A stretch of DNA of 42,025 nt from Synechococcus sp. GreenBA-s (GTDB lineage: Bacteria > Cyanobacteriota > Cyanobacteriia > PCC-6307 > Cyanobiaceae), in NCBI RefSeq assembly GCF_024345855.1, contig NZ_JAGQBX010000021.1:1-42025 (forward strand), given 5' to 3'. Position numbers and translations under genes: made by a program. Of the stretch, positions 27,293-42,025 are shown one piece after another. How positions within the stretch are numbered: position 1 is the stretch's first letter; each line of letters starts with the position of its first letter. The notes below the pieces were generated by a model. That model made no database searches and was not told where the DNA came from. It worked only from the letters and a program-made list of their open reading frames with translations.

Positions 27293-29263
27293 ATGGCCCC
27301 ATCCACCCGGAGCTCCAGCCGCGCCGAAATCCACTGGAGCGCCGATCGCAGCGATCACCGCGCCCTGGCCCTGCGCGACGACTGGAGCGGCATCAGCGGC
27401 CTCGAGCAGCTCTGGCCGGCGCTGGCGGAGCGCTATGGCGCGGCGGTGGCCGTGGAGGCCCCCCACGCCAAGCCGCCGGAAACCCTCAGCTACCGCGAGC
27501 TGCAGCAGCGGATCGACCAGGCCGCGGCGGCCTTCGCAGCCCTGGGGGTGCGGCCGGGCGACGTGGTGGCCCTGTTCGCCGAAAACGGTCCCCGCTGGCT
27601 GGTGGCCGACCAGGGGCTGATGCGTGCCGGCGCCGCCGATGCGGTGCGGGGCAGCGCCGCCCCGGCCGAGGAGCTGCGCTACATCCTGCGCGACTCGGGC
27701 GCCATCGGCCTGGTGGTGGAGTCGGCCGCGTTGCTCCAGCAGCTGGCCCTGGGCTCCGAGGAGCTGGGGCGGCTGCGCTTCGTGCTGGTGCTGGAAGGGG
27801 AGGGGGGCGACGAGGCGCCGGTGGTGCCCTGCTTCAGCTGGGCCGACCTCCTGGCCCGCGGTGCCCAGGAGCCCGTGCCGCCCTGGCCCACGGGCGGCGA
27901 GGAGCGCCTGGCGACCCTGCTCTACACCTCCGGCACCACGGGCCAGCCCAAGGGCGTGCCCCTCAGCCACGCCAACCTGCTGCACCAGATCCGCACCCTG
28001 GGCGTGGCGGTGGCGCCCCGGCCCGGCGACCACGTGCTCAGCGTGCTGCCGATCTGGCACGCCTACGAGCGCACGGCCGAATACCTGCTGCTCAGCTGCG
28101 GCTGCCGCCAGACCTACACGACCCTGCGGCACCTCAAGGCCGACCTGCAGCGGGTCCGGCCCCAGTACCTGATCAGCGTGCCGCGGCTGTGGGAGGCCCT
28201 GCTGGCCGGCTTCGAGGATGCCGTGGCCGCCATGCCGCCGGGCCGCCAGCGCCTGCTGGGCCGGGCCCTGGCGATCAGCCGCTTCCACAGCGCCCAGAAG
28301 CGCCGCGCCCGCGACCTCACCCTCAGCCCCCATGGCCCCCTGGACCGGCTGGCCGGTGCGGCTCTGGCGGCGGGCAGCTGGCCCCTGCATGCCCTGGCGG
28401 CGCGCCTGTTCTGGCCCAAGGTGCGGGCCCAGCTGGCCGGCGGTCGGCTGGGGACGGCCATCAGCGGCGGCGGCGCCCTCGCCCCCCATGTGGATGGCTT
28501 CTTCGAGGCGATCGGCATCGAGCTGCTGGTGGGCTACGGCCTCACCGAGACGGCCCCGGTGCTCACCTGCCGCCGCCCCTGGGCCAACCGCCGCGGCAGT
28601 GCCGGCCAGCCCCTGCCCGGCACGGCCCTCAAGATCGTGGAGCTGGAGGGCCGCGCCACCCTGGGCTGGGGGGAGCGGGGCCGGGTGCTCGCCCGGGGCC
28701 CCCAGGTGATGGCGGGCTACTTCGGCAAGCCGGAGGCCACCGCCAAGGTGATCGACGCCGAGGGCTGGTTCGACACCGGCGACCTGGGTCACCTGCTGAG
28801 CGATGGCTCCCTCGTGCTCACCGGCCGGGCCAAGGACACGATCGTGCTCAGCAGCGGCGAGAACATCGAGCCCGGTCCGCTGGAGGAGGAACTGGCGGCC
28901 TGCTCCCTGGTGGAGCAGGTGATGCTGGTGGGCCAGGACCGGCGCCAGCTCGGCGCCCTGATCGTGCCGCGGCCCGAGCCCCTGGCGGCCTTCGCCCGCG
29001 AGCAGGGGCTCACCCCGCCGCCGGCCTTTCCCGACGGCTCCCCCGCCGGCGCCGAGGCGGCGCTGCTCAAGGCGCTCACCGGCCGGCTCAACCGCCGCCT
29101 GGCGGCCCGCCCCGGCTCCCGGCCCGACGAGCGCCTGGGGGGCGTGGCCCTGGTGGCGCCCTTCAGCATCGAGAACGGCCTGCTCACCCAGACCCTCAAG
29201 CAGAAGCGCGACCGCATCACCCAGCGGGATGCCGCGGCGATCGAGGCGATTTACGGCCGCTGA
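27293..29263 (+). CDS. Long-chain fatty acyl-CoA/acyl-ACP synthetase
   Basis: This AMP-binding enzyme activates fatty acids through an acyl-adenylate. The product is 656 residues. The ATP loop LLYTSGTTGQPKG is near residue 210, the IWHAYERTAEY block near 260, GYGLTETAPVL near 415, and the GWFDTGDLG and AKDTIVLSSGENIEPGPLE hinge segments near 490-530. In cyanobacteria the close relatives (Aas, AAE15-like) recycle free fatty acids by loading them on ACP, so acyl-ACP synthetase is the most likely job; CoA use cannot be excluded. The frame is open upstream through lipB; the ATG at 27293 matches the family. It sits between lipB and the YlqD-like gene. Confidence 0.93.
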   Translation: MAPSTRSSSRAEIHWSADRSDHRALALRDDWSGISGLEQLWPALAERYGAAVAVEAPHAKPPETLSYRELQQRIDQAAAAFAALGVRPGDVVALFAENGPRWLVADQGLMRAGAADAVRGSAAPAEELRYILRDSGAIGLVVESAALLQQLALGSEELGRLRFVLVLEGEGGDEAPVVPCFSWADLLARGAQEPVPPWPTGGEERLATLLYTSGTTGQPKGVPLSHANLLHQIRTLGVAVAPRPGDHVLSVLPIWHAYERTAEYLLLSCGCRQTYTTLRHLKADLQRVRPQYLISVPRLWEALLAGFEDAVAAMPPGRQRLLGRALAISRFHSAQKRRARDLTLSPHGPLDRLAGAALAAGSWPLHALAARLFWPKVRAQLAGGRLGTAISGGGALAPHVDGFFEAIGIELLVGYGLTETAPVLTCRRPWANRRGSAGQPLPGTALKIVELEGRATLGWGERGRVLARGPQVMAGYFGKPEATAKVIDAEGWFDTGDLGHLLSDGSLVLTGRAKDTIVLSSGENIEPGPLEEELAACSLVEQVMLVGQDRRQLGALIVPRPEPLAAFAREQGLTPPPAFPDGSPAGAEAALLKALTGRLNRRLAARPGSRPDERLGGVALVAPFSIENGLLTQTLKQKRDRITQRDAAAIEAIYGR

Positions 29264-41031: not shown

Positions 41032-41715
41032 ATGTGCGGCCGCTTCTCCCTCACCACCGCCCTGGACCGGCTGCTGCCGCGCCTCGGGGACTCCGTGCCC
41101 GAGGGGCTGCTGGAGCACTACGCGCCGCGGCAGCGGATTGCCCCGGGTGAGCCGGTGCTGGTGCTGCGCCAGGAGCACGGGCGGATCGGCACGGCGCTGA
41201 TGCTCTGGGGCCTGCTGCCCGAGTGGAGCCGCGATCCCCTGGCCGGGCCCCGCCCCTTCAACGCCCGCAGCGAGACCGTGGCCGAGAAGGCCAGCTTCCG
41301 CGGCCCCTGGCGCCACCGCCGCTGCCTGCTGCCCGCCGATGCCTTCTCCGAAAAGGGCCGGCTGATCCGTCGCAGTGACCGGGCCCCCTTCTGGCTGGCG
41401 GGCCTCTGGGACCGCTGGATCGGACCGGAGGGCAGCGAGGTGGAGAGCTGCTGCGTGCTCACCACCGCCGCCAATGGCCTGATCCGCCCCCTGCACGATC
41501 GGATGCCGATGATCCTTCCCGACGGCCTGGAGCAGGCCTGGCTGGCGCCGGCCGATGGGCCGCAGCTGCGGGCCCTGCAGCCCCTGCTGGCGGGCTGGGA
41601 TCCGGCCGGTTGGGAGCTGCTGGAGCCCGCGGCGCGGACGGATCGCCCCCGGGGTTCACGGTCAGCGGGCGCTGCTGCCGGGCCCGCTGCCGCCCAGCTG
41701 GATCTGTTCCGCTGA
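41032..41715 (+). CDS. SRAP-family protein (HMCES/YedK-like)
   Basis: SRAP proteins form a thiazolidine crosslink with abasic sites in single-stranded DNA, protecting them. The product is 227 residues starting MCGRFSL, with C2 as the crosslinking residue after Met removal. The other conserved parts are the Asn in PFNARSET near residue 80, the Glu in PADAFSEKG near 105 (usual form PADGFYEW), and the His in LHDRMPMIL near 155. The C-terminal tail is Ala/Gly-rich. The ATG is at 41032. Part of this gene (41493-41621) is repeated in inverted form at the window end, probably an artefact. LexA in the same window makes an SOS link plausible. Confidence 0.92.
   Translation: MCGRFSLTTALDRLLPRLGDSVPEGLLEHYAPRQRIAPGEPVLVLRQEHGRIGTALMLWGLLPEWSRDPLAGPRPFNARSETVAEKASFRGPWRHRRCLLPADAFSEKGRLIRRSDRAPFWLAGLWDRWIGPEGSEVESCCVLTTAANGLIRPLHDRMPMILPDGLEQAWLAPADGPQLRALQPLLAGWDPAGWELLEPAARTDRPRGSRSAGAAAGPAAAQLDLFR
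41493..41621 (+). repeat. Left arm of 129-bp perfect inverted repeat
   Basis: This part of the SRAP gene is matched base for base, in reverse complement, by 41897-42025. As it belongs to an intact reading frame, it is the original and the other arm is the copy. Confidence 0.93.
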
Positions 41716-41788
41716 GGGGCCCACAATCGAGCCAGATCGGCTGGAGCCTGGTTCCCTGTCCCCTGCTCCCCCGCCGCCCGCCTCCCCG

Positions 41789-41896
41789 TTGCCACCCGCC
41801 TCGGCCCAGGCCCTGCGGCGGCGGCACCGCAGCTATGGGCGGCTGCTGGTGCTCTGCCTGGTGCTGATTGGCGCCTATGCCCTGCCCGCGGGCTGG
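41789..41896 (+). CDS. N-terminus of an exported or membrane-anchored protein, cut by the chimeric end
   Basis: After the SRAP stop, a frame from a TTG at 41789 encodes a basic start (AQALRRRHRSYGR) followed by a hydrophobic stretch (LLVLCLVLIGAYALPAGW), like a signal peptide or anchor. At about 41897 the sequence turns into the reverse complement of the SRAP gene, so the rest of the protein is lost. The family cannot be told. No ATG or GTG start is available in this frame, so the TTG is a guess. Downstream codons to the window end should not be translated as real protein. Confidence 0.45.
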
Positions 41897-42025
41897 AGCA
41901 GCTCCCAACCGGCCGGATCCCAGCCCGCCAGCAGGGGCTGCAGGGCCCGCAGCTGCGGCCCATCGGCCGGCGCCAGCCAGGCCTGCTCCAGGCCGTCGGG
42001 AAGGATCATCGGCATCCGATCGTGC
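41897..42025 (-). repeat. Right arm of 129-bp inverted repeat at window end (likely chimera)
   Basis: Each base from 42025 back to 41897 pairs with 41493 forward to 41621 (positions add to 83518). Two mismatches then interrupt the match, and nine further bases pair (41886-41894 with 41624-41632). The arm ends exactly at the window edge, which fits a fold-back formed in amplification or assembly rather than a biological repeat. Confidence 0.9.

Follow-up and report, generated by a model that had tools for sequence, protein, structure and literature searches.

A terminal fold-back of the SRAP gene in Synechococcus sp. GreenBA-s is very probably a contig-end artefact and conceals the adjacent potassium channel gene

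The window analysed here, a stretch of 42,025 nt, represents the entire contig C14 of Synechococcus sp. GreenBA-s, so that position 42025 is the contig end. It contains a gene predicted to encode an SRAP protein of 227 amino acids (41032-41715, forward strand; Pfam PF02586, E = 2.7e-47), and its last bases repeat a part of this gene on the opposite strand. The locus therefore raises the question whether the inverted copy belongs to the chromosome of the strain or is an artefact, and which gene actually follows the SRAP gene.

A repeat search of the window detected inverted arms of 140 nt at 41493-41632 and 41886-42025, which are 99% complementary and lie 253 nt apart. Their exact core comprises 129 nt and bears out the original prediction that 41897-42025 is a perfect reverse complement of 41493-41621 with 275 nt between the exact arms. 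The first arm (41493-41632, forward strand) is located inside the SRAP gene. The loop (41633-41885, forward strand) comprises the end of this gene, the intergenic region and the start of a channel reading frame. At its base the sequence CCGCGGGCT (41886-41894, forward strand) matches the reverse strand of 41624-41632 over 9 nt, followed by two mismatched bases (41895-41896) in front of the exactly copied arm. The short complementarity that had been predicted for the junction is thus present, and it supports the microhomology-primed strand switch proposed on its account. The second arm (41897-42025, reverse strand) is an exact opposite-strand copy of 41493-41621 and occupies the contig up to its final base.

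Searching the genome with 41493-42025 revealed that the loop overlaps another contig of the same genome, C27, at positions 28638-28872 including its last base. Read in reverse, this part of C27 is identical to 41663-41897 of the window apart from one segment of 54 nt, which is discussed below. The two contigs part at 41898, where the window turns into the fold-back and C27 runs onward; base 41897 is common to the second arm and to the true continuation, and the C27 sequence identifies 41886-41897 as genuine. An Ion_trans_2 domain (Pfam, E = 9.4e-13) was recognised in the protein encoded by the continuation. Based on these sequence comparisons, the real right neighbour of the SRAP gene is a predicted Ion_trans_2 K+ channel gene that is continuous with the window up to 41897, its 5' part being located at 41789-41897 (forward strand) and the remainder on C27. 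The new reading frame that had been proposed to begin at 41789 was accordingly recognised correctly with regard to its residues, which match the channel gene, but its start codon is doubtful: the TTG at 41789 corresponds to CTG in a related genome, and the open frame extends beyond this codon in the upstream direction in both genomes.

This related genome, G006, was assigned to the same genus and probably represents Vulcanococcus limneticus, judging from a stretch of 450 nt that it shares exactly with Vulcanococcus limneticus LL. Its alignment with the GreenBA-s sequence begins at the SRAP start, includes the channel gene and shows 90% identity in 1786 columns; the fold-back is absent from this DNA alignment of the SRAP-channel locus. 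Comparison with a relative at the SRAP locus, which had been recommended as a check, hence shows collinearity without the inverted copy. The first arm and the loop are collinear with G006 and, for 41663-41897, present on C27 as well, except for the inverted 54-bp segment; both are therefore regarded as genuine genomic sequence. The last 140 bases of the window match G006 solely at the locus of the first arm and on the opposite strand, the only exceptions being weak hits of the second arm elsewhere (80-88% over 38-58 nt). Furthermore, the SRAP gene is located upstream of the channel gene in the loci of all five named relatives, with identities of 78.6-94.1%. Taking C27 and G006 together, the view that the true right neighbour is unknown beyond about 41896 no longer applies.

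The genome (2.85 Mb in 92 contigs, 99.84% complete) was also surveyed for fold-backs at other contig ends, using 1500 nt from each of 163 of the 184 ends (21 were left out). A fold-back was counted if its exact arms reached 25 nt or more and its outer arm lay no more than 62 nt from the end, cut-offs that were chosen after the list had been viewed. Fold-backs were detected at ten of the 163 ends, in contrast to none of 163 inner control segments. Their exact arms measure 139 nt (C4 end), 121 nt (C10 end), 129 nt (C14 end), 42 nt (C25 start), 128 nt (C32 end), 72 nt (C48 end), 27 nt (C53 end), 109 nt (C59 end), 65 nt (C61 end) and 120 nt (C75 end), and the outer arm ends on the very last base in seven cases. 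All ten loops are 20-275 nt long, while the 1500-nt ends could have shown loops of up to about 1.3 kb. Short terminal palindromes or hairpins (C43 start, 20 nt; C13 end, 15 nt; C79 end, 13 nt), a 26-nt pair 315-415 nt inside the C49 start and internal repeats or palindromes of 20-28 nt at the starts of C15, C67, C1 and C65 and the end of C21 were excluded from the count. A chance inverted repeat could be ruled out as the source of the C14 arms, as no non-palindromic exact inverted repeat longer than 14 nt was found in the 163 inner segments (900 nt each, 1500 to 600 nt from the end) and none longer than 16 nt in 26 interior 1500-nt tiles of the window.

Nine of the ten fold-backs (C4, C10, C14, C25, C32, C48, C59, C61 and C75; C53 was left out) were searched in G006. 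In eight of them collinearity with G006 reaches approximately as far as the junction, and the outer arm then matches the locus of the inner arm on the other strand; besides C14, the fold-back is thus lacking in G006 for C4, C10, C32, C75, C48, C59 and C61. A homologous locus for the C25 fold-back was not found in G006. Via G006 the C10 end could be connected to the C3 start and the C32 end to the C48 start, with gaps of roughly 50-90 nt, whereas the 163 ends yielded no neighbour of the C4 end. Up to its fold-back, the C53 sequence shares 48 exact nt with the C27 start, and this overlap stops at the junction. Since the start and the end of C27 both map to a single contig of G006 (its C13), the order C53-C27-C14 is supported.

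The fold-backs at the ends of C75 and C48 approach almost the same position from either side, corresponding to 5607 and 5605 on contig C2 of G006, which suggests a strand barrier or a breakage hot spot at this place.

Six pairs of contig ends (C1/C7, C2/C30, C4/C9, C13/C73, C16/C67 and C44/C56) share exactly 139 nt, apparently the word length of the assembler, and no fold-back arm is longer than 139 nt. This ceiling may be explained if an arm extends only until it meets sequence already present in the assembly graph. Apparent tandem or dispersed repeats were observed at further break points (C9 end/C54 start, C38 end/C69 end, C33 end/C47 end, and the C47 end itself) and look like another cause of breaks in this assembly.

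The C14 fold-back is very probably a contig-end artefact, which we consider likely to have been produced by hairpin self-priming during library preparation or amplification, and the chromosome continues into the channel gene on C27. It is observed that fold-backs recur at contig ends, that a collinear relative lacks the fold-back, that a second contig carries the true continuation and that the junction shows microhomology. As expected for hairpin self-priming, the outer arm lies at the very contig end and reverse-complements sequence upstream of it, a short natural inverted repeat of 9 nt is present at the base of the loop, and the inner arm and the loop are genuine, while the outer arm is missing at the locus in G006 and C27. 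From this we infer a preparation step, a local loss of coverage and a behaviour of the assembler that could have acted together as follows. A single strand reaching about 41897 would anneal by its 3' end to its own upstream sequence through the 9-nt natural inverted repeat, pairing 41886-41894 with 41624-41632, and a polymerase would extend the annealed end by copying from 41621 back towards 41493. At this GC-rich and presumably hairpin-prone site few correct fragments would be assembled over the junction, and the assembler would prolong C14 along the chimeric fragment or fragments until these end.

Single-strand hairpins that form on short natural inverted repeats and are extended by a polymerase are described as a library artefact in the sections of PMC3946424 considered here. 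The interrupted palindromes reported there resemble C14 in that the 3' end is the reverse complement of the 5' part; they were, however, found in individual AT-rich reads of historic cod DNA, whereas the present cases are contig ends of a GC-rich bacterial assembly. According to excerpts of PMC10908179, chimeric reads at inverted repeats arise in sheared libraries and are explained by the PDSM model. In that system, as here, natural inverted repeats prime the chimeras, and the sequence between the repeats may become inverted, which is comparable to the 54-bp segment of C27. It differs in concerning soft-clipped reads of human capture data, with partial single strands of similar molecules pairing with each other.

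Some observations speak against hairpin self-priming. The mismatched bases 41895-41896 mean that the priming 3' end was not perfectly paired. Among the eight of the ten junctions that were compared, microhomology is evident at C14 (9 nt), discernible at C53, C25 and C75 and slight at C32, but unclear at C4, C10 and C48. For C25, moreover, no homologous locus was found in G006.

Multiple displacement amplification (MDA), by which a 3' end displaced by branch migration re-primes on a nearby displaced strand and yields an inverted copy, offers a possible origin, which we regard as rather unlikely. The completeness of 99.84% in 92 contigs conflicts with the expectation for amplified single cells, for which such completeness is unusual. 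The ten loops are all confined to 20-275 nt, the scale of library fragments, although the survey could have revealed loops of more than 1 kb. In the portions of PMC1855051 that deal with chimera formation, the main type consists of inverted joins with an intervening segment and a complementarity of 2-21 nt, a range that includes the 9-nt match at the C14 junction. The same portions state, however, that MDA inversions mostly join segments less than 10 kb apart with a frequency declining with distance. MDA chimeras further differ from the present case in distances that reach up to kilobases and in their need for amplification by phi29. Considering these short loops, the high completeness and the recurrence at contig ends only, library-scale hairpin self-priming fits at least as well, and we favour it over MDA.

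According to a further explanation the assembler alone turned onto the opposite strand at a short inverted repeat, with no chimeric molecule involved. The fold-backs occur solely at contig ends within the stretches examined, and the arm lengths stay within the 139-nt overlap, both of which would agree with it. Nevertheless, a match of 9 nt followed by two mismatches is far below the apparent assembly word of about 139 nt and does not reach even the smallest words with which assemblers commonly start; the explanation is thus very improbable and was rejected. The original prediction, which had named an MDA chimera or an assembler turn-back, was right about an artefact, as indicated by C27, G006 and the recurrence at contig ends; of the possible sources MDA was not established, and a turn-back by the assembler alone is very improbable. 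A genuine and recent inverted duplication of part of the SRAP gene in the chromosome, with which the perfect arms would agree, is practically excluded, since C14 ends within the arm, as do or nearly do all ten cases, and since both G006, which lacks the fold-back, and C27 of the same genome, where the channel gene is uninterrupted and adjoins this sequence, run on into the channel gene.

The second peculiarity of the locus is the 54-bp segment at 41771-41824 (no strand assigned), located at the 5' end of the channel frame and bounded by perfect inverted arms of 8 nt (CCGCCGCC/GGCGGCGG). It is exactly reverse-complemented in C27 (28711-28764). The orientation in the window agrees with G006, so that the orientation in C27 is either derived or false; the channel frame is open in both orientations. 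The arms themselves are nothing special, given that exact 8-nt inverted repeats with loops of 20-60 nt begin at 134 of the 42,025 positions of the window. A simple single fold-back is excluded as the source of the inversion by both flanks being correct in C27: its left flank, together with the arm, is identical to the window over 41663-41778, as is its right flank from the second arm up to 41897. The orientation in C27 consequently presupposes a double switch, a pair of opposed fold-backs that the assembler joined, or a genuine inversion.

In view of the artefact reads in the relevant passages of PMC10908179, in which the sequence between inverted repeats is inverted, an artefact seems the likelier reading of the C27 segment. 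The opposed turn-backs of C75 and C48 demonstrate that this assembly contains fold-backs reaching one site from both sides; if an assembler joined two of this kind, the result could look like an inversion. Alternatively, the segment may be a real micro-inversion in a part of the population, whose hairpin also breaks the assembly and seeds the fold-back; we consider this unlikely. If true, the micro-inversion would exchange some 18 codons of the channel, or else its start region.

The fold-back itself is without biological significance, and its relevance lies in data hygiene. About 6% of the contig ends examined (10/163) bear false fold-backs, by which genes are truncated and which might be mistaken for inverted duplications, hairpins or terminal repeats. 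At the same time, the survey of contig ends gives indications of true joins, such as the order C53-C27-C14, in which the SRAP and K+ channel genes are adjacent.
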